From positions 186,001 to 250,000 of the forward strand of contig JAFYNR010000033.1 of NCBI GenBank assembly GCA_017548045.1: a stretch of DNA of 64,000 nt, in the 5' to 3' direction. The stretch comes from Clostridia bacterium. Its GTDB lineage: Bacteria; Bacillota; Clostridia; Oscillospirales; Acutalibacteraceae. Both the position numbers and the translations under genes were made by a program. Below, piece by piece: positions 5,373 to 61,704 of the stretch (the stretch's first letter is position 1; the number at the start of each line of letters is the position of its first letter). The notes beneath the pieces are model-generated. The model saw only the letters and a list, made by a program, of their open reading frames with translations, was not told the DNA's origin and searched no databases.

Positions 5373-5413
5373 TAAAAAATGAGCTGTCTGAAAAGACAGC
5401 TCATAATTTTTTT
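5373..5413. terminator. Bidirectional terminator between convergent phosphoesterase genes
   Basis: ATGAGCTGTCT/AGACAGCTCAT closes on GAAA, with A-rich sequence on one side and a T run on the other, so it can act in both directions. Confidence 0.85.
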
Positions 5414-6398
5414 ATACAAGAGGTACGCTGTAGTCGTAAACGGGGTACCATTTTGCGGTGCCGAAGTTTCTTGCTCTGAAAAGAACCTCATCCTCATAAA
5501 CCTCCATCTGGAAGCCCATACCGCCCCAGGGCACACCGTAACGGTTGATAATCATATAGGTGGGAAGATTTATGTAGTTAACACCGTTGATTGTCTCAAC
5601 GCAGGAAAAACCGAATGCTTCTTCAACAAGAGGTCCGTTTATGCCTGTGTGAACGTGGCCGCTGATGAAAAATACGTTTTCATATTTTTCAAGAATTGTC
5701 TGAACCGCTTCGCTGTTGTGGTCAAGACCGCCGTCGGGATAAATAACGTCCTGACCGTTAACACCTTCAACGGGTACGTGACATACAACAAACATAGGCA
5801 GGCCTCTGTCTGCCGCCTCGGCAAGTGAATCATCAAGGAACTGAATCTGTTCGGGTGTCATATCGGGGCAATCCCAGGTATCGTCACCGTCATCGCAGAG
5901 AACAACGAATCTGTAACCGTTGATATCGGTTTTGTAATATGCCTTCTCAATGGGGTCGCCCGTGGGCTTGAGCTCGTTAAAGGTTTTAATAAAATACTGT
6001 CTTGCCTCTTCCTGAGTAATATCCTCAACGTGGCCTACGTCGTGGTTGCCCATTGCAATAACCCAGTTTTCAGCACAGTCGCTTTCGGCAACAATATTGA
6101 AAAAGCTTGCCATTGAAGCACTGTCGCCGTAGTTTGTAAGGTCGCCGGGAACGATAAGCGCATCAATGGTATCCTTTGAGCGTTCAACATCGTTAAGACC
6201 CTGTGCCCAGAGAAGCTCACCGATTGCCCATTCAACGTCAATATGAATATCCGACATAATAGATGCGTTCAGCAGGCAGTTTTCTCTCTCCGTTGCAAGC
6301 TCAAGCGCATCAAAGCTCTTAAGAAATTCGCTTGAGGGGAAAACCGTAAGAAGTGCTGAAACCACAAGTGCTATCGCCTGTTTGATTAAAAGCCACAT
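5412..6398 (-). CDS. Calcineurin-like metallophosphoesterase, probably exported
   Basis: A 328-residue protein that starts with a hydrophobic segment (residues 5-20) acting as a signal peptide or membrane anchor. All metallophosphoesterase blocks are present: SDIH near 50, PGDLTNYG near 87, GNHDVG near 118, VCHVPV near 211 and GHVHTG near 252, giving a complete dinuclear metal site. Substrate unknown; related proteins hydrolyse nucleotides, phospholipid head groups or phosphoproteins. It is the third gene of a minus-strand group with a PHP-domain protein and a hypothetical gene, with a good RBS (AGAGAGGAATTTTAATATG). It ends at a bidirectional terminator. Confidence 0.88.
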   Translation of the reverse strand: MWLLIKQAIALVVSALLTVFPSSEFLKSFDALELATERENCLLNASIMSDIHIDVEWAIGELLWAQGLNDVERSKDTIDALIVPGDLTNYGDSASMASFFNIVAESDCAENWVIAMGNHDVGHVEDITQEEARQYFIKTFNELKPTGDPIEKAYYKTDINGYRFVVLCDDGDDTWDCPDMTPEQIQFLDDSLAEAADRGLPMFVVCHVPVEGVNGQDVIYPDGGLDHNSEAVQTILEKYENVFFISGHVHTGINGPLVEEAFGFSCVETINGVNYINLPTYMIINRYGVPWGGMGFQMEVYEDEVLFRARNFGTAKWYPVYDYSVPLV

Positions 6399-6415
6399 AT
6401 TAAAATTCCTCTCTT

Positions 6416-6964
6416 TTACTCTTTGAATTCAAATTCTTCAATCATATTGCATACCGCCATATCGGTATCAATATAAATTCTTGTGCCGAGTGCTGCATAG
6501 AATTCGTCGTTATCTCGGTCACAAAGCATTGCGTAGTTTTTGCCGATATTTTCTTCAACGTTTCTGTTTTTGCGAACGGAAAGATAATAGAAAGTATAAG
6601 ATGAGCCGTCTGAAATGTTTTCAAAAAGTCCCTGATGAAGCTTTGAAATTTTTGAATACATTGCGTTGATTGCCTGTGACGCAAGCATCTGATGAGGCAG
6701 ATATTTATGCAGTGAAATCTGCGCAGAAAATACCATAAGCGCTCTGAGAAGCCTTACCTCGTTTGTAGTAAGCTTTGATGCATCCTTTGGACAAATACTC
6801 TCAGGCGAAAGGTCTGCAAGCTTTTCGCCGAGCTTTTTTGCCTTTTCCATATTTCCGTTGCTGCGGTAGGTATCCATCAGTAATGCAAGCTCTGCAAGAT
6901 CCGCACCTGCACCTTCTTTTTTCGACGGATGAAAAATTTTAATGTCATCATCGTTGTGTTTCAT
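6416..6964 (-). CDS. Hypothetical protein
   Basis: A 182-residue soluble protein that I do not recognise. The N-terminal 30 residues are polar and charged, residues 30-60 (LMDTYRSNGNMEKAKKLGEK) look like a helical, TPR-like repeat unit, and the rest is predicted mixed alpha/beta. No signal peptide, membrane segment or catalytic motif is visible. It lies between the PHP gene (one base apart) and the metallophosphoesterase gene (17 bases), so cotranslation with both is likely and a role connected to phosphate-ester metabolism is conceivable, but that is inference from position only. Confidence 0.75.
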   Translation of the reverse strand: MKHNDDDIKIFHPSKKEGAGADLAELALLMDTYRSNGNMEKAKKLGEKLADLSPESICPKDASKLTTNEVRLLRALMVFSAQISLHKYLPHQMLASQAINAMYSKISKLHQGLFENISDGSSYTFYYLSVRKNRNVEENIGKNYAMLCDRDNDEFYAALGTRIYIDTDMAVCNMIEEFEFKE

Positions 6965-6965
6965 T

Positions 6966-7829
6966 TTATTTCTCCATTGCCGCTTTCTTTTTCTTCATTT
7001 TATTCTTATAACTCATAAGTGCCTTTAAGTCAGCATCGGGAGTAAGATAATCGCCTATACTGATCTTATTTTTTGAATACATACCCTTGAATTCGGTGCC
7101 GCCGAGAGCAAGCAGACCCTTATCCTTTGCATACTTTTTGAGCATTTCAGTCTGCTCGGGTGTATTATCGGGATGATATACCTCAATTCCGTCAAGAATA
7201 CCCTTTTCGGTCAGTTCTTCCATAAGATCAAAGCAGTTGCTTACTGCGGGATGTGCAAGCACCGCAACACCGCCTGCCTCGTGAATTGCGTCAATAACCT
7301 CAGCCGCATCGGAATATGTAACCTTAACAAGCACGTTTTCGGGGCTTTCGGGTGAGAAAAGCTCATCATAAAGCTCACCGTAAATTCTGTCGGTAAGTCC
7401 GCACTCAAAAAGAGCATGCATAATGTGCTGCTCAAAAACAGCCGTTGCACCTGTTGCACACTTGAGCACAAGCTCAGGTGTGATAGGATATTTGCGGGCA
7501 ATTTTAAGTGTCATAAGCTGACTTGCCTTTTTACGCTGAACAATATTTCTGTGGCAAAGACCCTCAAGTCTGTCGGGACTGTCGCTCAGATAGCAAAGAA
7601 TTTCAACGTTAACCCCTCTTTTGGTATCCGTTGCAGATAACTCAACACCGGGGATAACGGTTATTCCTCTTCTCTCACCGATAATCTTACCTCTGACGGT
7701 GCCTGCCTGACAGTCACGGTCGGTAATGGCGATAGTGGTTATTCCTTTCTTCTGAGCAAGTACAATAAGGTCATCAATACCCATTGAACTGTCTGATAAT
7801 TTTGTGTGACAATGCAAATCTGCCGGCAT
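6966..7829 (-). CDS. PHP-domain protein with incomplete metal site
   Basis: PHP-domain proteins are metal-dependent phosphoesterases. This 287-residue protein starts at the ATG preceded by GAGAGAGGTAATAATT; a longer frame upstream lacks homology. It keeps DLHCHTKLSD (residues 4-13), the glutamate of PGVELS (near 63) and the histidine of VLAHPA (near 200). However, the usual TDHD reads TDRD at residue 38, and the C-terminal GxDxH reads GGTEFKG, so two metal positions are lost. It may bind fewer metals or be a non-catalytic relative. It heads an operon with a hypothetical gene and a metallophosphoesterase. Confidence 0.82.
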   Translation of the reverse strand: MPADLHCHTKLSDSSMGIDDLIVLAQKKGITTIAITDRDCQAGTVRGKIIGERRGITVIPGVELSATDTKRGVNVEILCYLSDSPDRLEGLCHRNIVQRKKASQLMTLKIARKYPITPELVLKCATGATAVFEQHIMHALFECGLTDRIYGELYDELFSPESPENVLVKVTYSDAAEVIDAIHEAGGVAVLAHPAVSNCFDLMEELTEKGILDGIEVYHPDNTPEQTEMLKKYAKDKGLLALGGTEFKGMYSKNKISIGDYLTPDADLKALMSYKNKMKKKKAAMEK

Positions 7830-46618: not shown

Positions 46619-47755
46619 ATGATGTGTGCCTATTTTGATAACAGTGCAACAACGGCGCCTTGCTGTGAGGCGGTCAGTGCCGTTGCGGATGCAATGACAA
46701 AGTGCTGGGGCAACCCTTCATCCCTTCACAGAGTGGGCAACGAAGCCAAGACCTTGCTGGATGAATCAAGGGAAGCGATTGCTTCAAGGCTTTCCTGCAA
46801 ACCCGAAGAAATCTATTTCACGTCGGGCGGAACAGAAAGCAATAACCTTGCCCTTTTCGGCGCCGCATACCAGATGAGGCGCATGGGCAGAAGAATTGTT
46901 TCAACAAGCATTGAACATTCCAGCATTGACGATACTCTCAGCCGCCTTGAAGCAGACGGCTTTGAGGTTATCAGACTTAAAGTTGACAGCTACGGCAGAA
47001 TAAATGAAAAGGACCTTTATTCTGCGGTTAATTCAAATACAATTCTCATTTCAATGATGCTCGTTAATAACGAGGTGGGTACGGTAATGCCTGTGCAGGC
47101 GGCAAAGCGTGCGGCAATGATGGCGCGCTCACCTGCCCTTATTCACTGCGATGCTGTGCAGGCATTCGGCAAAATGCCCGTCAAACCTCAGGCTCTGGGT
47201 GTTGACCTTATGACGGTAAGCTCCCATAAAATCCACGGTCCCAAGGGTGTAGGAGCAATTTATATCCGCAAGGGTGTAAAAATCAAGCCCCGTACTCACG
47301 GCGGCGAGCAGGAAATGAAAATCAGACCCGGCACGGAAGCTATGCCTGCCATTGCAGGCTTTGCGGCGGCGGCAAGAGCCTTGCCCGACCCGCAGAAGGA
47401 GCTGGAGCATATCAGAATGCTTCGCGACTATATGGTTTCAAGGCTTGAGGCTATGGGAGATATCGTTATCAACTCCCCTGCCGATGCACTTCCGTATGTG
47501 ACAAATATTTCGGTGCTGGGCATAAAATCCGAGCCTATGCTCAACTTCCTTTCGGAGAAGGGCATATGCGTTTCAAGCGGCTCGGCTTGTTCAAAGGGAA
47601 AGAAAAGCCACGTGCTTACGCAGATGGGTCTTGACCGCAGAAGGCTTGACAGTCCTCTGCGAATCAGCTTTTCAAGATTTACCACCATTCAGGAAATTGA
47701 TGCGCTTCTGCTTGGCATAGCAGAGGGCAAAAAGATAATCAGGTCGGCAGACTGA
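46619..47755 (+). CDS. Cysteine desulfurase (NifS/IscS type)
   Basis: PLP enzyme that strips sulfur from cysteine for delivery to ThiI and other acceptors. The 378-residue protein begins CAYFDNSATTAPC, has the PLP lysine in VSSHKIHGPKGVGAIY near 203 and the active cysteine in SSGSACSKGKKSHV near 324. Directly upstream of thiI (18 bases), as nifZ-thiI in Bacillus, so its main task is probably tRNA 4-thiouridine (and maybe thiamine) sulfur. Two alternative starts (46619, 46622) differ by one codon. Confidence 0.94.
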   Translation: MMCAYFDNSATTAPCCEAVSAVADAMTKCWGNPSSLHRVGNEAKTLLDESREAIASRLSCKPEEIYFTSGGTESNNLALFGAAYQMRRMGRRIVSTSIEHSSIDDTLSRLEADGFEVIRLKVDSYGRINEKDLYSAVNSNTILISMMLVNNEVGTVMPVQAAKRAAMMARSPALIHCDAVQAFGKMPVKPQALGVDLMTVSSHKIHGPKGVGAIYIRKGVKIKPRTHGGEQEMKIRPGTEAMPAIAGFAAAARALPDPQKELEHIRMLRDYMVSRLEAMGDIVINSPADALPYVTNISVLGIKSEPMLNFLSEKGICVSSGSACSKGKKSHVLTQMGLDRRRLDSPLRISFSRFTTIQEIDALLLGIAEGKKIIRSAD

Positions 47756-47773
47756 GAATAAACGGAGAGTAAA

Positions 47774-48949
47774 ATGAAGGAAATAATTCTTATCAAAAAC
47801 GGAGAGCTTGCCCTTAAAGGTCTTAACAGAAGAACCTTTGAGGATATGCTCGTGAAGAATATGCGCCGCAGACTTGAGAGCGCAGGCAAATTCAAGTTTA
47901 CTATTGCACAGTCAACAATCATTGCAGAGCCCGGGAACGAAAACGTTGATATGGACGAAGCTATTGAGCGTGTTGGCAAGGTTTTCGGAATTGCGGGCTT
48001 TTCAAGAGCTGCTGCGGTTGAAAAGGATATGGAAACCATACTGAGAAGCGCCGAAGAATATCTGGCTCCCCAGCTTCTCGGTATCAGAAGCTTCAAGGTT
48101 GAGGCGAAGCGCTCGGATAAAAAATTCCCCCTTACGTCCCCCGAAATCTGCAGGGAAACGGGCGGCTATCTTCTGCGGAAGTTCCCTCACCTTATTGTTG
48201 ACGTTCATAATCCCGATCTTGTTGTTACCGTTGAAATCAGAGATACTCACGCTTATATTCACGGTAATCAGATAAAGGGTGCAGGCGGTATGCCCACGGG
48301 CTCCGCAGGCAGGGCAGCCGTGCTTATTTCGGGCGGTATTGACAGCCCCGTTGCCGCATATATGATGGCAAAGAGAGGGCTTGAGCTTATTGCGGTTCAT
48401 TTTGCGTCACCTCCCTACACCAGCGAAAGAGCAGAGCAGAAGGTTCATTCACTTCTCAGACAGGTCAGCAAATATTCGGGCAGAATAACTCTCTGGGTTG
48501 TACCCTTTACGGAAATTCAGGAGCTTATCAAGGATAACTGCCCCGAGGATATATTCACCGTCATTATGCGCCGTATGATGATGAGAGTGTCGCAGATTAT
48601 TGCAACAAGAGATAAGGCAGGCGCACTTATCACGGGCGAAAGCGTGGGTCAGGTTGCGAGCCAGACTATGCCTGCCATTGCCTGCACCGACGCAGTTTGC
48701 GAAATGCCCGTTTTCCGTCCGCTTATCGGTATGGATAAGGACGAGGTTGTTGCCATTTCAAGAAAAATCGAAACGTTTGATATATCAATTCTTCCCTATG
48801 AGGATTGCTGTACGGTATTCACGCCCAAGCATCCCAAAACAAAGCCCACTCTCGATTACGTTGAGGAGTGCGAAAAGGCGCTTGACGTTGACAGACTTGT
48901 TGAGGAAGCGGCAAAGAATGCAAGATTTGTGCCCATAAGTGCTTATTGA
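47774..48949 (+). CDS. thiI: tRNA 4-thiouridine synthase ThiI
   Basis: Forms s4U8 in tRNA and, in some species, thiamine sulfur. The 391-residue protein has a THUMP domain (about 60-165), the PP-loop SGGIDSPVAAYMM near 182, and a C-terminal part ending before any rhodanese domain; the shorter form fits a persulfide taken directly from the neighbouring desulfurase. It starts 18 bases after the desulfurase gene with GGAGAGTAAA. Confidence 0.95.
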   Translation: MKEIILIKNGELALKGLNRRTFEDMLVKNMRRRLESAGKFKFTIAQSTIIAEPGNENVDMDEAIERVGKVFGIAGFSRAAAVEKDMETILRSAEEYLAPQLLGIRSFKVEAKRSDKKFPLTSPEICRETGGYLLRKFPHLIVDVHNPDLVVTVEIRDTHAYIHGNQIKGAGGMPTGSAGRAAVLISGGIDSPVAAYMMAKRGLELIAVHFASPPYTSERAEQKVHSLLRQVSKYSGRITLWVVPFTEIQELIKDNCPEDIFTVIMRRMMMRVSQIIATRDKAGALITGESVGQVASQTMPAIACTDAVCEMPVFRPLIGMDKDEVVAISRKIETFDISILPYEDCCTVFTPKHPKTKPTLDYVEECEKALDVDRLVEEAAKNARFVPISAY

Positions 48950-48971
48950 TTGACTGAAAGGAGAAAAGGAA

Positions 48972-50210
48972 ATGTCTGTTTGCGAAATTCTTTCCGTAGG
49001 TACGGAAATTCTTCTCGGAGATATTCTCAACACCAATTCAAGATATCTTTCTGTTGAGCTTGCAAAGCTGGGCATTTCCGTCCTCAGACATACAACCGTA
49101 GGTGACAATGCCGAAAGGCTTGCCGCCGCACTGAAAACCGCACTTGAAAGAAGCGATATCGTTATTGCCACGGGAGGTCTCGGCCCTACGCAGGATGACA
49201 TTACAAGAGACGTGTGCTGTCAGGTTATGGGCTGTGATACGGAGCTTGACTGCGGTATTGCAGATAAAATCAAGGCATATTTTGAATCGAAAAACATCGA
49301 AATGCCTGAAAGCAATCTCAGGCAGGCATACGTGCCCAAGGGTCAGACCGTTTTTGAAAACAACAACGGCACCGCACCGGGTATCGGAATAAAGAAAGAC
49401 GGCAAATGCGTTGTTATTCTTCCGGGTCCGCCTTACGAAATGGCGCCGATGTACAGAGAAAGCGTTGTGCCCTTCCTCAGCGAATATGCCGAGGGAGCTA
49501 TTGTGTCACACACTGTGAGAACAATGGGTATCGGTGAAAGTGCAATGGCGGAAATCTGTGCGGACTTGCTTGAAAAAGAAAATCCCACCGTTGCGCCATA
49601 TGCCAAAAAGGGAGAGGCTCTTCTCCGTGTAACCGCTAAGGCAGAGAATACCGACGAAGCGGAAGAGCTTTGCAGACCCGTTATTGATGAAATCAGAACA
49701 AGGCTCGGCGGTTATGTATACGGAATTGACAGCGAAAGCATTGAAGAAAGAGTTGTTCAGCTTCTCAAAGAGAAAAAAATGATCGTTGCAACGGCTGAAA
49801 GCTGTACCGCAGGCTATATTGCCAAAAGAATAACCGATTTTCCCGGTACAAGCAACGTTTTCGGTTGCGGTGCGGTAACCTATTCCAACGAAATCAAGCA
49901 GAAGCTGCTTGGCGTAAAGGCAGAAACCCTTGAAGCATACGGTGCTGTCAGCGAGCAGACCGCAAGAGAAATGGCGGCAGGCATACGCCGCGTATCGGGT
50001 GCGGATATCGGAATTGCAGTAACGGGTATTGCCGGCCCCGGCAGTGACGGCACAAGCAAGCCTGTGGGCTTAAGCTACGTTGCCCTTGATGCGGATGATA
50101 TGCAGGTTTGCGAAAAGGTCGAAACAGGCAGAAACGACAGAGAATATAACCGCTACGTTACGGGCTCCCGTGCCCTTAACCTTGCGAGAAAATACTTGGA
50201 GGATAAATAA
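48972..50210 (+). CDS. cinA: CinA-family nicotinamide-nucleotide amidase / MoCF-domain protein
   Basis: Competence/damage-inducible protein CinA, a two-domain enzyme: N-terminal MoCF-type domain (CEILSVGTEILLGDILNTNS; ATGGLGPTQDDITR) linked in some species to ADP-ribose pyrophosphatase, and C-terminal NMN deamidase with TAESCTAGYIAKRITD near 273 and GIAGPGSDGTSKPVG near 353 (catalytic Ser and Lys region). 412 residues, the standard length. Follows thiI by 22 bases. A degenerate paralogue-like segment occurs at 53347-54350, 3 kb downstream. Confidence 0.95.
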   Translation: MSVCEILSVGTEILLGDILNTNSRYLSVELAKLGISVLRHTTVGDNAERLAAALKTALERSDIVIATGGLGPTQDDITRDVCCQVMGCDTELDCGIADKIKAYFESKNIEMPESNLRQAYVPKGQTVFENNNGTAPGIGIKKDGKCVVILPGPPYEMAPMYRESVVPFLSEYAEGAIVSHTVRTMGIGESAMAEICADLLEKENPTVAPYAKKGEALLRVTAKAENTDEAEELCRPVIDEIRTRLGGYVYGIDSESIEERVVQLLKEKKMIVATAESCTAGYIAKRITDFPGTSNVFGCGAVTYSNEIKQKLLGVKAETLEAYGAVSEQTAREMAAGIRRVSGADIGIAVTGIAGPGSDGTSKPVGLSYVALDADDMQVCEKVETGRNDREYNRYVTGSRALNLARKYLEDK

Positions 50211-50212
50211 GA

Positions 50213-51193
50213 ATGAATAAGAAGGTTGCTGTAATCCTTACGGCGGTTTTTGCGGCAGCTGCCGTGCTTTTCACCGTGCTTGCCGCCGTGAATTTCACTA
50301 AAAAATCCGACGAAGGAATTATCAACAAAGAAACAGCGGGGCTTGTTCTTGCCGAAGGTGTTGAAGACGATGCCGTAAGCGCAGAGCTTGACGGTGTGAA
50401 GTCAAACGCAATGAAGGCTCAGACTCAGTATCCCGAGGGTATTCTTGAAGAACTCAAGCAGGCATATGCAATCAATAACGACCTTGCGGGCTGGCTTTCG
50501 ATTCCCGGCACCGAAATGGATACCGCAGTGCTTCTGGGTGATGACAACAGCTATTACCTCAAAAAGGATTTTTATAACAAAACTACTTACGAAACCTCAG
50601 CGGATAACTACGGCAATATTTATCTTGATTACCGCTGTCTGCCCGACCATCTTTCAAAAAATATGGTTATCCACGGCCACACAACGGGCAAATCCGACGG
50701 CGTACCCAAGCAGGCATTCCGTTCACTCTATGATTACAGAGATAAGAACCATTTCATCGAAAATCCCATCATTAAATATAAGACGCTGACAGGTGAGTAT
50801 ACCTACAAAATCTGTGCCGTTTTTCTTTCCAACACTCAGCCCAAGGATGATAACGGTTATTTCTTCAACTACATCTATCCCGATATGGGGGATAACAATA
50901 TGGTTGGTTACATTGAGCAGGTGAATCAGCGCAAGCTTTATGATACCGGAGTTTCACTTGAACCCACCGACAAGATAATTACTCTTTCAACCTGCATTTA
51001 CGACTACGGCAAAAACGTTGATACAAGGCTTGTTGTTGTGGGCAGACTTCTTCACGAGGGCGAAAGCGAGGAGATTGATGCGTCGCTTGTCAAGGATAAC
51101 CCCGATTACCGCAGACCTCAGGTGTGGTACAACGCAAAGGGTAAAACAAACCCCTACAAGAATGCCGAAAAGTGGCAGCCCAGCCCCAACTGA
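50213..51193 (+). CDS. Class B sortase
   Basis: Cysteine transpeptidase attaching proteins to the wall or to each other. The 326-residue protein has an N-terminal membrane segment (5-26) and the sortase fold with catalytic histidine in MVIHGHTTGK (H156), cysteine in ITLSTCIYD (C261) and arginine in VDTRLVVVGR (R272), all in the usual spacing; the CAVFLSNTQPKDDNGYFFNY loop is SrtB-like. Only 2 bases after cinA and 44 before the next sortase, so cotranscribed. No LPXTG or NPQTN substrate lies in the window. Confidence 0.93.
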   Translation: MNKKVAVILTAVFAAAAVLFTVLAAVNFTKKSDEGIINKETAGLVLAEGVEDDAVSAELDGVKSNAMKAQTQYPEGILEELKQAYAINNDLAGWLSIPGTEMDTAVLLGDDNSYYLKKDFYNKTTYETSADNYGNIYLDYRCLPDHLSKNMVIHGHTTGKSDGVPKQAFRSLYDYRDKNHFIENPIIKYKTLTGEYTYKICAVFLSNTQPKDDNGYFFNYIYPDMGDNNMVGYIEQVNQRKLYDTGVSLEPTDKIITLSTCIYDYGKNVDTRLVVVGRLLHEGESEEIDASLVKDNPDYRRPQVWYNAKGKTNPYKNAEKWQPSPN

Positions 51194-51237
51194 TTTGAAA
51201 ATTATCTGAAATTCAGTATAAATACGGAGGAATTGTT

Positions 51238-53196
51238 ATGGCAAACGATAACGAAAAGAAGCCTTCATCACTGCCCGAAGGGCTCAGCTCAATCGCAGAC
51301 GATGAGGCGATAACCGAAATCAATCTTACGGATTTTCTTGAGGAAAGCTCCAAGGCGGCGCCGCTTTTTGAGGGCTTTCACGAGGATATTGAAAACACGG
51401 AAAAAAGCATTGAAAGCGAGCTTCAGAGCCTTTATGACGATATTGTGGGCAGCGGTCCCGAGGTTATTGTGCCCAAGCCTATGTCCGTTCTTACCGCAAG
51501 TGAGGCGGAGCCTGCAAAAATTGCGCTTTCAGACCCTCAGCTTCCCGATGACGGTGAGGCTTCATCCCTTGATGATTTGTGGATGAATCCCGAGGATTAT
51601 TATGACGAGGAAATACCTGTTGTTTCTCTTGATGAGGACGAGCCCGACGTGTACGAAATGTCGGAGCAGGAGCCCTTTGAAGAAGAAACAGCCGATGAGC
51701 CTGAAACGGGTGCGGATTCTGCAAAAGACGACATTTTCAGTATGATTGATATGCTGAAGGCGGATTCCGACGGTGAAACGGGCTTCGGCGATATTCTTTC
51801 TGAAATCGAAGCAAACGAAGGCATTGCAACGGTTGATACGGAGCTTTCCGTTGCGGCAAGCCTTGTTACAGACCCTGCCGCATATGAGGAAGACGAATCC
51901 GTATGGGAGCTTCCCGAGGAAGAAGCAGAGGCGATTCCCGAGGTACCTGCAGAGGAAGTGTCCGCAACAGAAAATACGGAAGATAAGGTTGACACCGACA
52001 GCGATGAATTTCAGAGAGAGCTTGCAATTCTTCTGGGTGATGCAGTGCCCGAAGAAAAGCCCGAAGCGCCTGCAGGCTTTGTGATTGACATTCCCGATGA
52101 CGGCAACGATTATGAAGCGGCAGCGGCTCAGCCCGAAAAGCTTTATGAGCCCGAGCCCATGAGCAGCGGAATTACCTATATGACCGAGGAAGAATTCGAG
52201 GCAAAGGAAGCGGAGAAAAAGGCGAAACGCAAGAAGGAGCCTAAGGAGGAAAAGCCCGAAAGCAAGGCGGCAGGCATTGTGAGAAAGGTTGTTCTCGCAA
52301 TTTCGGCAATTACCATTGTGGTATGCTCGGCGATTATCGTTAACACGTATATCGTTCAGCCTCTTATGTTCCGCAAAACCGCACAGCAGGTTGCAGATCA
52401 GATGAGCGAAAACATCAGCCAGCACGACCAAACGGCAGTTGTTGATTCACGCCTTGAAAGTGAGTTCCCGGGCGTTGAGTTCCCCGAGGGAATGCTTGCA
52501 AAGTACGGTCAGCTTTATGCCGCAAACAATGATCTCAGAGGCTGGATTTCAATAGACGGTCTTGACATCAACTTCCCTGTGGCACAGGGTATAGATAACG
52601 ATTATTACCTTGAGAAGGATATTTACGGCAAATATACAATGTACGGTGTACCCTTCTTTGATTACAGAATGACGGATTTCCGAAATCTTCATAGGAACAA
52701 CGTTATCTACGGTCACAATATGCGTTCCGATGATTACATTTTCGGCAATCTTGAAAACTACCGTACCATTGAGGGCTTTAAGAACGCACCTGTTATTGAA
52801 TGTAATACCATTTACGGCGACTACACCTGGTTTGTCTATGCCGTATTCATCACAAACTCAGACCCCAAGGATGATAACGGATATCTTTTCCCCTATAACT
52901 TTATCGACATTTCAACAGCCAAGTTTGAAGGCTACATTGATGAAATCGATAAGCGTAAGCTTTACTCAACAGGCGTTGACATCAACGTAAGTGATAAGAT
53001 TCTGACCCTTTCAACCTGCTGTTACGACTTCAATGAGGCAAGGCTCGTTGTTGTTGCCAGACTTAAACGTGACGGTGAAAGCGTCAGCGTAGACACCTCA
53101 AAGGCAATCGAAAATCCCAATCCCAAGTATCCCCAGGCATACTATGATGCAAACAAAAAAGCGGTTAATCCCTATGCACAGGATGCCCGCTGGTAA
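51238..53196 (+). CDS. Class B sortase with long acidic cytoplasmic extension
   Basis: A 652-residue sortase about twice the usual size. Residues 1-345 are an acidic, low-complexity cytoplasmic region (runs of D and E; SLDDLWMNPEDYYDEE near 110) ending in a basic KAKRKKEPKEEK stretch, then one membrane segment (350-372), then a complete SrtB domain with H493 (VIYGHNM), C594 (LTLSTCCYD) and R602 (EARLVVVAR). Catalysis looks intact. The N-terminal region has no recognised domain; short DILSEIEAN/LAILLGD elements recur. A similar acidic disordered tail occurs in the protein at 58882. Function of the extension is unknown. Confidence 0.9.
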   Translation: MANDNEKKPSSLPEGLSSIADDEAITEINLTDFLEESSKAAPLFEGFHEDIENTEKSIESELQSLYDDIVGSGPEVIVPKPMSVLTASEAEPAKIALSDPQLPDDGEASSLDDLWMNPEDYYDEEIPVVSLDEDEPDVYEMSEQEPFEEETADEPETGADSAKDDIFSMIDMLKADSDGETGFGDILSEIEANEGIATVDTELSVAASLVTDPAAYEEDESVWELPEEEAEAIPEVPAEEVSATENTEDKVDTDSDEFQRELAILLGDAVPEEKPEAPAGFVIDIPDDGNDYEAAAAQPEKLYEPEPMSSGITYMTEEEFEAKEAEKKAKRKKEPKEEKPESKAAGIVRKVVLAISAITIVVCSAIIVNTYIVQPLMFRKTAQQVADQMSENISQHDQTAVVDSRLESEFPGVEFPEGMLAKYGQLYAANNDLRGWISIDGLDINFPVAQGIDNDYYLEKDIYGKYTMYGVPFFDYRMTDFRNLHRNNVIYGHNMRSDDYIFGNLENYRTIEGFKNAPVIECNTIYGDYTWFVYAVFITNSDPKDDNGYLFPYNFIDISTAKFEGYIDEIDKRKLYSTGVDINVSDKILTLSTCCYDFNEARLVVVARLKRDGESVSVDTSKAIENPNPKYPQAYYDANKKAVNPYAQDARW

Positions 53197-53346: not shown

Positions 53347-55623
53347 ATGAAAAGAAAGGTGAGCCTGCTTACCCTCTGCGCCCCGTCGGTGCAGAACGGG
53401 TCGGCATATATCGAGCAAAAGCTCAGGCAGTTTTATCCCGATACGTCCGCCGAGGATTACGGTGACTCTGCCTCTTTTGCCCAAGCTGTTGCAAAGCGTG
53501 CCTGCGAGGGCGGCATTATTGTTGCGGCTGTACCCACTTCAGTTTTTCCCGAAGCAAAACTCCGTTTGCTTAAGCTTTTTTCTTCGAAAATTGTCAGAAG
53601 CAGTGCAATAGCTTCTGCCTTGCAGGGTAATCTTCCCGATGGCTCAAAAGAGAAGGATATCCACAGCGCCGTGCCCGAAAAAGCGAAGGTTTTCGTTTCT
53701 GAAGACGGACTTTATTCCGCTTTTGCAAAAGAATTGGGCGAAGGCATAATTGTGGTTATGCCTCTTGAAGAAGAAAGGGCGGCGGCAGTATTTGCCGCAG
53801 GGCTTGATGCGCTTTTCGTGAAAGCATTTCCCGTTGCGAAGCCCAAAAAATCTGCTATGGAGCAGGTCAGAGAAAGCATATGTGCCGTTGCCGTAAGCGG
53901 CAAAACCGTTGCTGTTTCACCCTGCGGCAGTGCAAAGGCGCTTCTTTCGGTAATCACTGCGGTGCCTGAAAGCGAGGAAGCGTTTATTCCCGACTCAACC
54001 GTGAAGGAAGCGGTTGAGGGCGAGAGTGCAGAAGAATACTTAACTCAGAGTGCGAAACTTTCAAAGGAAACAACCGAAGCGGATTTCGGTGTTTCCGTTT
54101 CCGATATTACTGCCGACGGTAACGGCGAAAACTACGTGACGGTTTGCGTTGCGGATTCAAAGGGCGCAAGGGCTGCAAGGATTTTTGCCCTTCCCGGTGA
54201 AGGCGGCAAGCAGCTTATTGCGGCGGCTGTGATAAAGCTTTGTTCGATGCTTGAAGAAGTGACGGGCGGTGCGGGCATAGTTATTCCCCGTGCAGCCGAA
54301 AAGAATGACGGCAGGAAAATGGCACTCATAACAGCCCTGTGTGCCGTTGTGCTTGCGGCAGTAATCTGCCTTGCAGCGGCAATTATTATGGGCAGTGAAT
54401 ATACGAAGGCGTCCTACGCCGATTCAGGCAACGGCAATATTGCGGAGGAATCCACTCTTGCGCAGCAGGAGGAAGAATATTACGGCGGCAGCGGTCTTGA
54501 AGGCGAGGATATGGGTCTTGTTATTTTCCCCGAAGAATCCACGCTCATGTCAACAGAAAGCGTAACCTCCGCAACCCTTACCGAAAAGGTGACGAATCTG
54601 CTTACCACGATTGCCGCAACGGTAAAAACAACCAAGGCAACCACCACGGAAAAGCAGACTTCCACCACAACCAAGGCGGCAACTACAACAACCACCAAGG
54701 CAACGACTACTCAGAAGCCCACAACAACAAAGCCCGAAACAACAACGAAGAAGCTTGCCGAAACAACTACGCAGAAGGCTTCGGAGGGTACGACGGGCAC
54801 CGTAAGCGGTAAGTTTGTATTCAAGGTTTACGGCTACGGTCACGGTGTAGGTATGAGCCAGCACGGTGCCCTTGAAATGGCGAAAAACGGCAGTAAGTAT
54901 GAGCAGATTCTGACTCATTATTATCCCGGAACAACGATAAAAGAGGATACCGCAACACCCGAAACCGTTAATTACGGCGGTGCGGATATCCCGCTTATTG
55001 AATATATCTGCAGAACCACAAAAAAGGAAATGGGATACAGCAGTGCAGGCAAGGAAGCCGTAAAAGCCCAGATGGCGGCGATTTATACCTATGCAAAACA
55101 CAACAATTTTGTTGTGAAGTCAAGCCAGCACGCATATGATTCGGGCTTTGCTTTTGAAGGCACCGAAATCCACAAGACCTGCCTTGAATATCTGGGAATG
55201 GCAACCGCTGAGGACAAGCCTGTTGCAAAGTTCGTTGATTATAACGGTGCGGCGGCCAATACGGTTTATTTCTCCACCTCCGCAGGTAAAACCGCGGCGG
55301 CATCAACTGTATGGTCGGCAAACACGTATCCCTACCTGGAAGGCGGTATTTCAAGCCCCGAAAACCCCAATCCGTCGGAATTTGAAATTTCCGCAGAGGA
55401 TTTCAGAAAGCTTGTCAATGCATATAACGACGAAATTGTTCTGGGAGATAATCCTGCTCAATGGTTAACCGTTGTTGAGCACGATAAATGCATAAGCGAA
55501 AACTGCGGCTACGTTACCGCCATAAAGGTTGGCAATGCTCAGATGAAGGGCAATGCCTTCCGCACGGGGCTTATGAATTACAAAATCCGTTCACATTGCT
55601 TTACGGTTACATATGTTGCATAA
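53347..55623 (+). CDS. Membrane protein joining a degenerate CinA-like part to a permuted SpoIID domain
   Basis: A 758-residue protein. Residues 1-160 resemble the MoCF domain of CinA, and 170-312 the CinA C-terminal domain (ADFGVSVSDITADG where CinA has ADIGIAVTGIAGPG), but the catalytic TAESCTAG is replaced by VAVSPCGSAK, so this half is probably inactive. A membrane helix spans 325-348, then a Thr/Lys-rich linker to about 485. The extracellular domain begins YGYGHGVGMSQHGALEMA (495-512) and YEQILTHYYPGTTI, normally the C-terminal end of SpoIID, then IEYICRTTKKEMGYSS (E561, aligning with the SpoIID catalytic Glu) and EAVKAQMAAIYTYA, ending GNAFRTGLMNYKIRS. This order is a circular permutation. 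Lytic transglycosylase activity is inferred. Confidence 0.85.
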   Translation: MKRKVSLLTLCAPSVQNGSAYIEQKLRQFYPDTSAEDYGDSASFAQAVAKRACEGGIIVAAVPTSVFPEAKLRLLKLFSSKIVRSSAIASALQGNLPDGSKEKDIHSAVPEKAKVFVSEDGLYSAFAKELGEGIIVVMPLEEERAAAVFAAGLDALFVKAFPVAKPKKSAMEQVRESICAVAVSGKTVAVSPCGSAKALLSVITAVPESEEAFIPDSTVKEAVEGESAEEYLTQSAKLSKETTEADFGVSVSDITADGNGENYVTVCVADSKGARAARIFALPGEGGKQLIAAAVIKLCSMLEEVTGGAGIVIPRAAEKNDGRKMALITALCAVVLAAVICLAAAIIMGSEYTKASYADSGNGNIAEESTLAQQEEEYYGGSGLEGEDMGLVIFPEESTLMSTESVTSATLTEKVTNLLTTIAATVKTTKATTTEKQTSTTTKAATTTTTKATTTQKPTTTKPETTTKKLAETTTQKASEGTTGTVSGKFVFKVYGYGHGVGMSQHGALEMAKNGSKYEQILTHYYPGTTIKEDTATPETVNYGGADIPLIEYICRTTKKEMGYSSAGKEAVKAQMAAIYTYAKHNNFVVKSSQHAYDSGFAFEGTEIHKTCLEYLGMATAEDKPVAKFVDYNGAAANTVYFSTSAGKTAAASTVWSANTYPYLEGGISSPENPNPSEFEISAEDFRKLVNAYNDEIVLGDNPAQWLTVVEHDKCISENCGYVTAIKVGNAQMKGNAFRTGLMNYKIRSHCFTVTYVA

Positions 55624-55626
55624 ATT

Positions 55627-55659
55627 AAAGCTGTTTCACAAAAGTGAAACAGCTTTTTT
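55627..55659. terminator. Bidirectional terminator, SpoIID-like gene / spoIIE
   Basis: AAAGCTGTTTCAC/GTGAAACAGCTTT with an AAAA loop and a TTTTTT run; it sits directly between the two convergent stop codons. Confidence 0.9.
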
Positions 55660-57950
55660 CATATTTCCTCTGCAACGGCGGTAATGACGGTCATATCGTC
55701 AAACCGTTCACCGCAGCGCTGTCTTGCGGAGTCAACAACATTCTGTGAAAATCCGCTTGCGTCTTTTTTGCCGAAGGCCTTGATTTCGTCTTTAAGCCAG
55801 CCGTTTCCGCAGCCCAGTATACCGTCGCTTACCATAACGAGAGCGTCGCCGCCGTGAAGCTTGAGAGTGTATTTACTGAATCTGACCTTACTCAGAATTC
55901 CCAGAGGTGTTGAGGAAATCTCAACCGTGCGTATTCTGCCCTGGTTTGTGTAGAATGAAGGTGCAGCGCCTGCTTTGTAAAGTACGGTGCTTCCGTCAAA
56001 AAGGTCGATTTCCGCAACGTCGAGGGTAGAAAGCGATTCGTCGTCGGATTTTACGGAAAGGGCGGAGTTCGTTATGCTCAGAGCCGAATCAAGGCTGACC
56101 CCTGCCCTTACGAGCCTTGAAAAAAGCTCAACGGTCATTGTTGAATCTATTGCCGCCCTGCCGCCTGTACCCATACCGTCGCTGAGAATGATATATGCCT
56201 TTGAATCGGTCTGAAAGCATTCGAAGTAATCGCCGCACAGCTTCTGATTGCCGCAACTTGCGGCGGCGGAGCCGATGCGGACTTTATAAAGCTCTTTACG
56301 CAAAAAAACAAGCTCCTTTCCCTCGGAAAGAATTCTGATTTTCGGAGGATTCAGCATTACCTCAAGCTCCTTTGAAAGGGCGGCGGTAAGCTGTGAAAGG
56401 CTTGTGGATGGAGGAATTTCCGTAACGGTGCAGGTGAGCCTCAGCACTCCCGAAAGAGGCTGAATACAGCTTGCTTTTATCACCTCAAAGCCCTGCTCCG
56501 AAAGCACCCTTGCGGCGCATTTTTCTTTGCCGAAAAGCACCTGAGCACCCTTGCTCAGATCTTCGGAAAGCTCACGCAGAAGGGCGGCGGTCCAGTCAAA
56601 CTGACCGCAGGCAAGAGCTCTGTTGCGAGCTGAATTTGCCTGCAGGGCATTGACCGCATTCCTTGTGGCATATATTCTGTTAAAGCTGTCTGCAAGACGG
56701 GGCACACAGGGGCATTTCATATTGAAATCAGAGGAGAAATCCTCTGCGCCTATTTCATCGCCAGCTGCAAGCTTTTCCAGCACGGCGGCAAAATCCCCGT
56801 TTTCGGGGCAGAAGGTATCCTTCAGACGGCATTGGGAGCATACTCTTTCACGTACGCGCATACAAACCATAACGTCGCTTGCGGGCGAAAGGGCTTCAAT
56901 GCCTTTTGAAACGTTTGCAACGCACTCCGAAACCGAGCCGACGGCCTTTGCGGCTTCCATAAGTCTTTCACCGGCACAGCCGAACTCGAAATCGATTCTC
57001 TGCGCCTTGGGGTTCAGAATGTTGCTTCTGACCCGCGAAAGCTTTGCTTTGGGAATAACCGCAAATATGAATGCCGCCGATGCCGCTTCCGCAAACACGC
57101 AAAGCCCCTCGCTTGTGCCGTCAAGCAAGGCGGCGATACCCGACGTAAGAGTGAATACGACAGCGCACACAATTTGCCCCTGCTTTGAAAAAATTCCCGA
57201 TAAAAGGCCGCATATTCCGTAGCATATGCTTAATGCAACTCCAGTGCCCGATACGGCTATGCATCCGCCTACCGCAATGCCTGCAATACTGCCTCCCGAA
57301 CGGCTGAAAAGGTATGCGGCAGTCAGAATGACAAAGCAGCCGAAAAACCTTGCAGGTCTGAACCCCATAAGCGAAAGCTCAGATGAGCCTAAAAGCAGGG
57401 TGCACAGGCTTGCAACAATGCACACCAGGCTGTGGTTATCCAGCATATAGGGGCTTCGTCTGTTTCTTATGCAGTCGGCGGTGCCCGAATAAAATGTTAC
57501 AGAAGCGGCACACAGCAGGCTTGTGCATATGATGAGCATAAAATCCGCCATATTCGGCAATTCTGCAAGCATAATGCTCACAGAGCATAAAAAATGAAGT
57601 GCAAAAACGGCAACGGAAAGTATGAGCCGTCGGTTTTTACGCAGACCGGTTCTTTCCATAATATAAACGGTACCTGATATCGCCGCAACGGGGATTACCG
57701 TACAGAGCATCTCTCCTGCTGAAAGACGCAGAGCGCCGCCCAGAATACCTCCTGCCGCCGCACAGAGAAGCTCAAGCCCTCTGCAAGCGGCGCAAAGACC
57801 GATACTCAGCGGTATTCTGACAGAAAAAAGTCCTGCACCCGAAAGAATGAAGCTGCTCACGAAATAAAGAGCACAGGTAAGAATCCGTACTCCCCTTTCC
57901 CAGAGAATATCGGCAGGGTCGTCGGCGGATATAATTTTAGGCTTTTCCAT
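55659..57950 (-). CDS. spoIIE: Stage II sporulation protein E (SpoIIE)
   Basis: Membrane serine phosphatase that activates sigma-F in the forespore by dephosphorylating SpoIIAA. The 763-residue protein (827 in Bacillus) has about ten N-terminal membrane segments (residues 15-300), a regulatory middle region with cysteine pairs CSQCRLKDTFC, and the PP2C phosphatase at the C-terminus with ILSDGMGTGGRAAIDS near 575 and LVMVSDGILGCGNG near 720; the metal-binding aspartates are in place. The start is supported by GGAAAGGA. A TGNCGAA-type Spo0A-box-like heptamer lies 40 bases upstream. Its presence indicates sporulation ability. Confidence 0.94.
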   Translation of the reverse strand: MEKPKIISADDPADILWERGVRILTCALYFVSSFILSGAGLFSVRIPLSIGLCAACRGLELLCAAAGGILGGALRLSAGEMLCTVIPVAAISGTVYIMERTGLRKNRRLILSVAVFALHFLCSVSIMLAELPNMADFMLIICTSLLCAASVTFYSGTADCIRNRRSPYMLDNHSLVCIVASLCTLLLGSSELSLMGFRPARFFGCFVILTAAYLFSRSGGSIAGIAVGGCIAVSGTGVALSICYGICGLLSGIFSKQGQIVCAVVFTLTSGIAALLDGTSEGLCVFAEAASAAFIFAVIPKAKLSRVRSNILNPKAQRIDFEFGCAGERLMEAAKAVGSVSECVANVSKGIEALSPASDVMVCMRVRERVCSQCRLKDTFCPENGDFAAVLEKLAAGDEIGAEDFSSDFNMKCPCVPRLADSFNRIYATRNAVNALQANSARNRALACGQFDWTAALLRELSEDLSKGAQVLFGKEKCAARVLSEQGFEVIKASCIQPLSGVLRLTCTVTEIPPSTSLSQLTAALSKELEVMLNPPKIRILSEGKELVFLRKELYKVRIGSAAASCGNQKLCGDYFECFQTDSKAYIILSDGMGTGGRAAIDSTMTVELFSRLVRAGVSLDSALSITNSALSVKSDDESLSTLDVAEIDLFDGSTVLYKAGAAPSFYTNQGRIRTVEISSTPLGILSKVRFSKYTLKLHGGDALVMVSDGILGCGNGWLKDEIKAFGKKDASGFSQNVVDSARQRCGERFDDMTVITAVAEEI

Positions 57951-58872: not shown

Positions 58873-58881
58873 GTGAATGAA

Positions 58882-61704
58882 TTGAGCGATTATCTGAACA
58901 ATACTTTGGGCGATGAGATAGATGATATTCTTGCCCAGGTAAGAAATTCAAATCAGACCTTGGAGGAGGAGCCCTCCAAAACCTGGTCGCTGGATGACAT
59001 CGACAGGCTGATTGCTCAGTCCAACGGCGAGGAATACGTACCCGCACCCAAAAAGGCACCCACACCTGCGGAGGATTTCGAAAGAATCCTCAGCCGTGAG
59101 TTTGACACGGGAATCTTTACCGTAAGACCTATGGATGAGGTTCCCTCAAAAACCGAAATGCAGGATATTTCTTCAACCTCGGGAGAGGATGAGGTTGACG
59201 GCCAGGAAACCTTCTTCGACGGCTCGGAGGAGGAAGATTTCGACGAATCGATGTTTGAAATCGAAACGGTTATCGTGCCCGAGGATATTCCTCAGCCCCA
59301 CGCAATGTTTGCCTGGCAGGAAGCTGAAAAAGAGCCCGAAAAGCCCGAGGATGAACCTGCCCAAGTGAAGATGTTTTATGAGGACGAAACCACGGTCATA
59401 GATTTATTTGCCCCCAAGCAGGAAGAAAAGAAGGAATCCGAAAACAAAATAGATTACAGAACCCGTTTCTTTGAAAAACTCAAGATTGAAAATACCGTTG
59501 AGATGGATCCCGTGCAGACAGGTCCCATTGACAGGTCGGGTATAGTTGTTCAGAAATCGGATGAGCAGGCGGAAAGCGGCCTTGAGGCTATGCCCAGAAT
59601 TCTTGCCGCAGAGGATGCCAAAAGTCTTGACGATGAGAAAACCCGTATAATGGAAGCGGTTGGCAGAGCCGAAAAGAAAATATCCGAGGCAGGCAATGAC
59701 GTAGAGGGTCAGATAATGCTGACGGGATTTGAGGATATTCCCGAAGAAACTCTGCCTGAGCAGAGCCACGAATTTGACGTTGAGGCACAGCTTTCCGAGA
59801 AGCGCAGGCAGAGAGCAAAGAACTTCAAGCTTATTGATGCCCTTGACCTTGACGAAGATTTTGAAGGCGATTTTGAAGCGCCTCCCGAAGACAGAGAAAA
59901 GAAGGAAAAGAAGCGGAAAAAGAGAGAAAAAAAGCAGGTCCGTGCGGCGGAAGAAAAGACCGTCGCAAAGGAATATGAATCACCTGCCGAGCGTTCTTCA
60001 ATGCACACACTTCTTACCGAAAAAAGTGCCGGGGCAACCAAAGGGCTTATCATTGCAGGTGCGGTTGAACTTCTTGTAATCATAATCAACCTTATCCCCG
60101 TGCTTGCCGAAAAGCTTGCTCTTGAGACCGAGGTTTTCATAGCGGGATCAGCACCTATGTGTGTTATCAACGCGGTTCTTATTATCGCGGCGGCGGCAAT
60201 CAACAACGTGCGCTTTGTTGACGGACTTATCGGTATATTCAAAAAGAATATTACTGCGGATACGGCGGTCAGCCTTTCGCTTGCAATCGCCCTTGTTCAG
60301 AATATGCTGGCAGCATTCGTCGGTGGCAACGAGGTAGCCACAACCGTATTCTCTGCGGCGGCGGTAGGTGCGGTGCTTATAAGTAAAATTGCTGAGAAAA
60401 TGGATGCACAGCGCACTCTCTCCAACTTTGAGGTATGCGTCTATAAATACGAACATAATATGTATGCGGTTCATCCCTTTGAGAATGAATCCGAAATTTT
60501 CGAGCTTGGCAGAGGTCTTATGATGGGTAATGCGGATTTGCTTTATTCGTCAAAGGTTGCTTTCCCTGCTGAATTTATGAAGAATTCCGAAGCGGATGCT
60601 ACGGATAAAAAGCTTATCCGTATTCTTGTTCCTGCGGCACTGGGTGCGGCGGCGGTTGCGGCAGTAGCTGCGGGTATCGTTGAAAAAAGCGTTATGGCGG
60701 CATTTTCCGCATTTGCAGGCACATTCTGTATTTGTTCACCCGTGCTTGCCTCGATTATTCCCGCGTTTATTGCAAGAATCGCAAATCACGGGCTTAACGT
60801 AACGGGAACCATGATTTCCGGTATCGGTGCGGCGGAAGAAACCGCAGGTGCAAATGCCGTTGTTATGGACTGTGCCGATATATTTGACCGTTCACAGTGC
60901 ACAATGCACGGCATGAAGGATTTCAAGACCATCAGAATTGACGATGTTCTTCTTTATGCGGCGGCACTTGTCATCAAGTCAGGCGGACCTCTCAGAGAAA
61001 GCTTTGAGCAGGTTGTTGACGGTAAACCTGACCTCCTTCCTCCCGTAAAAGAGCTTGTTTATGAAGATAAGCTGGGTATTTCGGCAAGAATTCACGGTCA
61101 GAAGGTGCTTCTTGGTAACAGAAATCTGCTTATAAACCACAGCGTAGAAATGCCTGACGGCATTTCTGAGGATAAATATACTCACAGCGGCAGAAAGGTT
61201 ATGTACCTTGCGGTTGCAGGCAAGCTTGCGGCACTGTTTGTTGTCAGCTATGCGGTTGATAAAAATCTTGAACCTTATTTCAGACTTCTTGAAAGCAACG
61301 GAATTCAGGTGCTTGTGAGAACAAATGACGTTAATGTTACAGAGGAGCTTATTTCAAAAAGCTTCGGTCTGCCTCAGGAAACGTTCAAGATTCTTTCCTC
61401 TGTTGCAGGCAAACTTTTTAAACGCAGAAGGGATGCGGTTTGTGACAGACTTCCTGCCAAGATTGTTCACGACGGTACGGCTTTTTCAATGCTCAGAGCT
61501 GTTGCGGCATCTTGCAGCATAACATCTCAGGCGAAGCTGGGTTCCGTGGTTCAGATAGTTCTCAGCGCTCTGGGCTTTGTGCTCAGCCTCGTGATTTACT
61601 GCACGGCAAACGGACCTGTATTCAACGGAATTACGGCGGCGATTTTCCTTGCGCTTGGATTTGCGGTGTCGGCAGGTATACTGTTTCTTCGGAAAATAAA
61701 ATAA
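58882..61704 (+). CDS. Pseudo P-type ATPase with long acidic N-terminal region
   Basis: A 940-residue membrane protein I have not seen described. The first 370 residues are acidic and disordered with a basic end (KKEKKRKKREKK). Then come membrane segments near 388-410, 420-445, 460-482, 487-505, 582-604 and 606-630, an internal soluble part, and two C-terminal segments near 888-910 and 914-936, the layout of P1B metal pumps. The order CIC, then NHGLNVTGTMISGIGAAEE and VVMDCADIFDRS matches the CPC...DKTGTLT path of copper pumps, but DKTG reads DCAD, and the GDGxNDxPAL position reads VHDGTAFSML. TGDN is also lost. So pumping is unlikely. TTG 58882 is preferred (AGGTG six bases upstream) to GTG 58873. 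Confidence 0.75.
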   Translation: MSDYLNNTLGDEIDDILAQVRNSNQTLEEEPSKTWSLDDIDRLIAQSNGEEYVPAPKKAPTPAEDFERILSREFDTGIFTVRPMDEVPSKTEMQDISSTSGEDEVDGQETFFDGSEEEDFDESMFEIETVIVPEDIPQPHAMFAWQEAEKEPEKPEDEPAQVKMFYEDETTVIDLFAPKQEEKKESENKIDYRTRFFEKLKIENTVEMDPVQTGPIDRSGIVVQKSDEQAESGLEAMPRILAAEDAKSLDDEKTRIMEAVGRAEKKISEAGNDVEGQIMLTGFEDIPEETLPEQSHEFDVEAQLSEKRRQRAKNFKLIDALDLDEDFEGDFEAPPEDREKKEKKRKKREKKQVRAAEEKTVAKEYESPAERSSMHTLLTEKSAGATKGLIIAGAVELLVIIINLIPVLAEKLALETEVFIAGSAPMCVINAVLIIAAAAINNVRFVDGLIGIFKKNITADTAVSLSLAIALVQNMLAAFVGGNEVATTVFSAAAVGAVLISKIAEKMDAQRTLSNFEVCVYKYEHNMYAVHPFENESEIFELGRGLMMGNADLLYSSKVAFPAEFMKNSEADATDKKLIRILVPAALGAAAVAAVAAGIVEKSVMAAFSAFAGTFCICSPVLASIIPAFIARIANHGLNVTGTMISGIGAAEETAGANAVVMDCADIFDRSQCTMHGMKDFKTIRIDDVLLYAAALVIKSGGPLRESFEQVVDGKPDLLPPVKELVYEDKLGISARIHGQKVLLGNRNLLINHSVEMPDGISEDKYTHSGRKVMYLAVAGKLAALFVVSYAVDKNLEPYFRLLESNGIQVLVRTNDVNVTEELISKSFGLPQETFKILSSVAGKLFKRRRDAVCDRLPAKIVHDGTAFSMLRAVAASCSITSQAKLGSVVQIVLSALGFVLSLVIYCTANGPVFNGITAAIFLALGFAVSAGILFLRKIK

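Follow-up and report, generated by a model that had tools for sequence, protein, structure and literature searches.

The gene at positions 53347 to 55623 (forward strand) of a 64,000-nucleotide stretch of the genome of a gut Clostridia bacterium (GenBank assembly GCA_017548045.1, contig JAFYNR010000033.1, positions 186,001 to 250,000; hereafter the window) encodes a 758-amino-acid protein ending in a SpoIID-type domain that is very probably a true circular permutant, with the fold and the catalytic glutamate kept and most likely with the capacity to cleave glycan strands. When the 274-residue domain (residues 485-758) was searched against the PDB using phmmer, it matched SpoIID of Clostridioides difficile (5i1t) as two swapped stretches at a full-sequence E-value of 2e-19, residues 4-49 of the query corresponding to residues 283-328 of 5i1t and residues 67-265 to residues 67-273. 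With rather less assurance, the permutation also appears to be a recurrent and reversible character: orthologues at a single locus show either order, at least two changes of order are needed on a tree of the CinA-like half, a part of the protein untouched by the permutation, and in one lineage nested in a permuted genus the canonical order was rebuilt from pieces of the permuted clade. The gene comprises the following features.

53347..55623, forward strand: whole gene (758 aa) with degenerate-CinA domain, membrane segment, Thr-rich linker and permuted SpoIID domain; locus conserved in relatives
53347..54276, forward strand: N-terminal, putatively cytoplasmic domain covering roughly residues 1-310, a probable degenerate CinA homologue
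54322..54393, forward strand: predicted membrane-spanning segment (residues 326-349), a hydrophobic stretch with presumed N-inside topology
54544..54798, forward strand: Thr/Lys-rich linker (about residues 400-484), read from the sequence
54802..54948, forward strand: relocated piece, the canonical C-terminal SpoIID piece (residues 486-534; 5i1t 283-328), 92.5 bits in a two-piece HMM scan whose profiles include the window row itself
54838..54861, forward strand: GHGVGMSQ motif (residues 498-505), read from the sequence
54949..54972, forward strand: 8-residue connector (residues 535-542) linking the former C- and N-termini, from the two-piece scan
54973..55617, forward strand: canonical N-terminal and middle SpoIID part (residues 543-757; 5i1t 67-273), 285.6 bits in the same scan, again with the window row in the profiles
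55027..55029, forward strand: candidate catalytic glutamate E561, aligned with E101 of C. difficile SpoIID

The swapped motif order had been noticed in a first-pass annotation made from the sequence alone, and it is confirmed by the phmmer stretches and by the motif positions (GHGVGMSQ starting at residue 498, EAVKAQ at 570 and IRSHCF at 747, with E561 as the glutamate of KKEMG). The protein exceeds the curated cut-off of the SpoIID/LytB family model TIGR02669 (83.3 bits) with 114 bits for the whole protein and 105.2 bits for the domain, but the match falls into two stretches with their order inverted; the glutamate/EAxKAQ piece, which precedes the GHGVGMSQ piece in the canonical order, follows it here, and the domain was therefore classed as a circular permutant of this family and not as an ordinary member. 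A rotation test, for which the canonical profile was built without the sequences of genus g98 and genome G267 (both described below), also favours permutation of the window domain. The structure prediction and homologue search that had been proposed as checks gave a confident model matching the SpoIID fold and a whole clade with the permuted order, so that the swapped match, the rotation test, the predicted fold and the order shared across the clade all speak for the proposed circular permutation. A second copy of GHGVGMSQ in the window gene, which would have pointed to another explanation, is ruled out, the window protein holding a single C-terminal piece. For the sporulation equivalog TIGR02870 the protein scores 100.3 bits, under the cut-off of 234.75; the same genome also encodes a separate ordinary SpoIID of 320 aa in canonical order (L001/L039).

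The candidate catalytic glutamate, described as kept in the first-pass annotation, aligns with E101 of the full-length C. difficile SpoIID chain 5txu and all 31 permuted domains in the alignment share it, together with Q91 of the domain and the motif G-x-G-H-G-V-G-x-S-Q; the rows of this alignment were chosen by a pattern requiring most of the GHG motif letters, and all fetched loci used had the motif, none being lost. In C. difficile the exchange E101A is reported to abolish both activity and sporulation complementation (PMC6221140). The GxGHGVG histidine is present in all 79 permuted rows (one of them read by eye, the pattern having matched another stretch) and in 48 of 49 other canonical rows, whereas it is gone in 27 of the 31 rows of genus g98, which has the canonical order and in which activity may thus be weakened or altered. 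Given the retained fold and catalytic glutamate, the window domain would most likely resemble SpoIID in the cleavage of peptidoglycan glycan strands.

In the mechanism we propose, the gene product would be a single-pass membrane protein with a cytoplasmic CinA-homologous half that lacks the CinA hallmark motifs and a Thr-rich linker, presumably outside the membrane, that carries the SpoIID-type lytic transglycosylase domain. The short connector of 8 residues (median 10, range 7-30, across 64 permuted rows) would join the old termini, with the chain break in the loop that connects the final two strands, right before GHGVGMSQ. Glycan strands would be cut as by SpoIID with the tether on a different strand, i.e., the permutation would leave the active site intact and move the tether, and the cytoplasmic half perhaps binds a ligand or partner, and in a putative sensing role it could control placement or turnover. 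The further suggestion of the first-pass annotation that the relocated terminus alters the membrane orientation finds no support and is rejected, since the domain keeps its place C-terminal to a single predicted segment (residues 326-349) and the linker, as it does in canonical-order members of the family. The change brought by the permutation is the strand through which the SpoIID domain is attached to the linker.

For the N-terminal half, a profile of 15 members (A2) was compared with a 10-member CinA profile (A3) using hhalign, which gave a probability of 98.8 and an E-value of 1.3e-16 over 298 columns, and a control comparison with a ThiI profile (A4) gave a probability of 0.3. The profile comparison thus identifies this half as a putative distant CinA homologue, although residues 1-327 match no Pfam family at an E-value of 0.01, CinA, MoCF and CinA_KH included, and one of the 15 members matches PF02464 (E-value 0.0076). 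At the alignment positions of the CinA motifs GGLGPT, AESCTAG and TGIAGP other residues are found, which suggests that the half is probably not a CinA-type enzyme. A true cinA lies three genes upstream of the window gene, which suggests that the degenerate half arose by duplication and decay. The CinA-like half was present in 77 of the 300 genomes of the family (threshold 1e-12). Among the matches listed, 30 of these 77 genomes have it together with SpoIID in one frame of 713-874 aa (26 permuted, 25 of them order-checked and G224 assigned by span; 4 canonical), 15 have the two halves as separate open reading frames (ORFs) of one strand, the CinA-like one shortly upstream of the permuted SpoIID, six have the two halves apart (G014, G015, G133, G222, G228, and G287), and two are partial or cut by a contig end (G273 and G163); the span-derived counts were made by hand from the search listings. 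Fourteen of the 15 separate pairs, picked for their adjacent coordinates, were fetched, and the order was permuted in each. Fusion and adjacency in many genomes tie SpoIID to a degenerate CinA protein and suggest that the two halves often cooperate.

The distribution of the permuted form was determined by searches of increasing taxonomic breadth. A contig scan found two close relatives, in SVOC01000008.1 (Oscillospiraceae bacterium SIG555; domain 93% identical, locus L006) and JAGAOT010000022.1 (water deer cecum; 68%, L007). In the same-family search (300 genomes) 261 genomes had some match at 1e-5, and by hand count at least 51 genomes from 21 of 135 genera had a contiguous match over at least 240 of the 274 residues; piece order was checked in 47 of these (G207, G222, G224, and G287 were left out) and was permuted in all 47. 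The order-level search (394 genomes, E-value 1e-30) returned a contiguous match in four genomes only, one of them (G486) outside the family. Of the 40 genomes in the genus of G486 (g237), 38 gave a match in a single stretch, and all 13 loci fetched from this genus were permuted. At the class level (single query, E-value 1e-17), where such a query may be too weak for g237-like forms, two of 391 genomes matched, namely the window's own and G1002 (draft, 77% complete), and at the phylum level (profile, E-value 1e-45) the window's own was the only match among 299 genomes. No permuted ORF was found on viral contigs (80 loci kept of 86), which yielded 58 canonical and 27 single-piece ORFs, and on plasmids four records had partial matches, none covering 80% of the query.

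Both orders of the domain were found at one locus, the upstream part of which in the window (aminotransferase-ThiI-cinA-srtB-srtB) is the following.

46619..53196, forward strand: class-V aminotransferase, ThiI, CinA and two class B sortase-like genes, assigned by family matches and synteny; the sortase-like genes score under the class B equivalog cut-off

Sixteen loci were compared, and cinA together with at least one class B sortase-like gene was found upstream in 14 of them, 10 with the permuted and four with the canonical order (L132 from genome G267; L133, L134, and L143 from genus g98). Locus L006 begins at cinA and L007 within ThiI, and in L144 cinA is truncated by the contig end; the remaining two, L142 and L145, are shorter permuted variants lacking this neighbourhood. 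The common cinA-sortase neighbourhood identifies the canonical and permuted proteins at the ThiI-cinA-srtB locus as orthologues; the g98 and G267 proteins agree with the window protein in their locus, CinA-like half, membrane segment and linker, and differ in the order of the SpoIID pieces. In genus g98 a match was found in 37 of 39 genomes and the order was canonical in 31 of 31 order-checked rows. In genus g87 the permuted fused gene occurs in 10 of 11 genomes, and G267 is the sole canonical member. Two observations concern cinA-related genes at these loci. A second CinA-like paralogue of 541 aa, with no Pfam match at an E-value of 0.01, lies immediately ahead of the fused permuted gene, between it and the sortase gene, in L137 (genome G123; 5353-6975), and in the three g98 loci compared (L133, L134, and L143) the standalone cinA is shortened to its C-terminal domain (158-159 aa). 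Downstream in the window, a divergent SpoIIE-like protein (55659-57950, reverse strand; 280.7 bits against a cut-off of 490.8) is encoded convergently to the permuted gene; among the 16 loci this neighbour was found again only in L006, several loci stopping soon after the gene.

Several points weigh against the assignment of the window domain as a catalytically competent permutant working with its CinA-like partner. It falls just under the gathering score of Pfam PF08486 (23), with 19.3 bits for the whole protein and 22.5 bits for the domain. Because the structure aligner works in sequence order, the placement of the relocated 50 residues is given by the sequence match and the confident compact model. 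SpoIID without SpoIIP was inactive in the published assay, and C. difficile SpoIID binds zinc via the motif H134, C140, H145 and C146, which is reported to occur only in C. difficile (both from PMC6221140); the motif is not conserved in the window protein, in which His stands opposite both of its histidines but Lys and a gap opposite its two cysteines. Among the 77 genomes with the CinA-like half, 24 have no permuted SpoIID among the matches listed (one of them, G050, has a 1064-aa frame), which means that the partnership is not universal. That the domain has become a catalytically dead cell-wall-binding module nevertheless seems improbable. The loss of the histidine in most canonical-order g98 rows indicates that drift is possible in this gene family, and the CinA-like half is itself degenerate, but the glutamate and the histidine are each kept in every permuted row in which they were scored. 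An artefact of assembly or gene calling deserves next to no credence. The draft genome of the window comprises 68 contigs and is 85.7% complete; many independent genomes, however, agree in order, reading frame and locus. For the permuted form this explanation is refuted, and an assembly join in the window gene in particular, raised beforehand as a possible objection, is ruled out by the same order in L006, L007 and tens of other genomes. For the single canonical case of G267 an artefact stays a candidate. Misassembly there is unlikely, given that the gene sits within a 30.9-kb contig, that its neighbours are the expected ones and that the junction preserves the frame and falls at domain boundaries; G267 is, however, a single draft genome.

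With the permutation taken as real, its history is the matter on which the phylogenies bear. On balance we favour a reversible permutation, in which the gene was permuted at least once and the canonical order was restored in G267, probably by tandem duplication of the domain and deletion of the outer pieces. G267 has the canonical order at the same locus as its permuted relatives, and on the SpoIID tree it (L072/L132) is nested in permuted rows (99/84* with L022; 99/90* in the groups of 5 and 28 rows); its placement outside the permuted rows was rejected (p = 0.0073), its odd order having been spotted before the tree was built. The tree inferred from the CinA-like half only, which has some long branches and contains two genomes twice (L135/L152 and L141/L035), also places G267 inside genus g87 (98/91* in a 5-row group), its exact sister being weakly supported (83/28), and a single clade of all canonical rows was rejected on it (p = 2.2e-8), this grouping having been chosen with the SpoIID tree already known. 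For each SpoIID piece of G267 the nearest sequences are permuted g87 proteins, and G267 shares with several of these an insert absent from all other canonical rows. Derivation of its C-terminal piece from a canonical SpoIID was rejected, the nearest pieces being from permuted g87 proteins (77% and 73%) and the best row of the other order reaching 56% over 50 columns in a comparison that left out G267's own canonical SpoIID. If G267 were instead a relic, several independent permutations would be required among close relatives; the simplest history has the permutation in the ancestor and the canonical order restored later in the G267 line. Against this stand the single draft genome in which the reversed form is seen, the absence of a tandem (CNC/NCN) intermediate among the order-checked ORFs, and the position of g98, which is either ancestral or a second reversed canonical form (its placement outside the permuted rows was not rejected, p = 0.212).

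More than one independent origin of the permuted form, i.e., in family f1, genus g237 (family f26) and genus g133 (L080), is a tentative proposal to which we give somewhat less than even weight. Order changes were counted on a 121-row quick tree (7 duplicate rows removed) and on a careful, rotated 84-row tree (37 further rows thinned); the latter needs five changes, at least three of them forced by well-supported branches, and the former four and three, respectively. Genus g237 moreover falls within a well-supported group (100/97*) of otherwise canonical proteins. On the other hand, two groupings were not rejected, a single clade uniting every permuted row with g98 and G267 (p = 0.137) and one joining g237 to L080 (p = 0.297), and the cuts lie at corresponding places in all pieces.

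Compared with SpoIID of C. difficile (5i1t and 5txu) and Bacillus anthracis (4rwr), the window protein has the two pieces swapped and adds the CinA-like half and the Thr linker. SpoIID itself, assays of the C. difficile protein and a chlamydial homologue are covered in published work (PMC6221140, PMC6635528), and natural circular permutation is known in general, e.g., from the cpRAS GTPases, which are likewise reported to have rotated motifs in a kept fold, the fold being a different one (PMC2430557). In the literature searched, which leaves most subscription papers outside, we found no permuted SpoIID, nothing on the reversal of a circular permutation, and nothing relevant on SpoIID LytB with Ruminococcus or on SpoIID with dockerin. 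A domain model can read a permuted protein as two partial matches. Natural circular permutants are usually observed long after the event. In the present case a single bacterial family, and even a single genus, has both orders at an orthologous locus, and the neighbouring domain provides an independent tree; the origin, reversibility, and cost or gain of permutations are thus open to direct comparison.

Further SpoIID-related proteins were encountered in the searches. Two permuted SpoIID proteins (L037:922-2364 and L091:126-1700) carry dockerin type I domains, over the Pfam cut-off in L091 and under it in L037, which suggests attachment to cellulosome-like complexes. On contig C27 of the window's own genome (L038:2270-3616) a 448-aa protein combines a shortened SpoIID-like domain with three peptidoglycan-binding domains C-terminal to it. 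In the viral copies of the motif the Gln codon after GHGVGMS is TAG in five of 59 occurrences (L248, L281, L294, L295, and L316) and never TAA or TGA, and the 267-codon frame at L248:3560-4360 stays open if TAG is read as Gln, together pointing to TAG-reassigned phages. Elsewhere in the window, the 943-aa protein encoded at 58873-61704 has no Pfam family match at an E-value of 0.1 and only weak similarity to P-type ATPases (43.1 bits, the cut-off being 1316), and is possibly a degenerate P-type ATPase.
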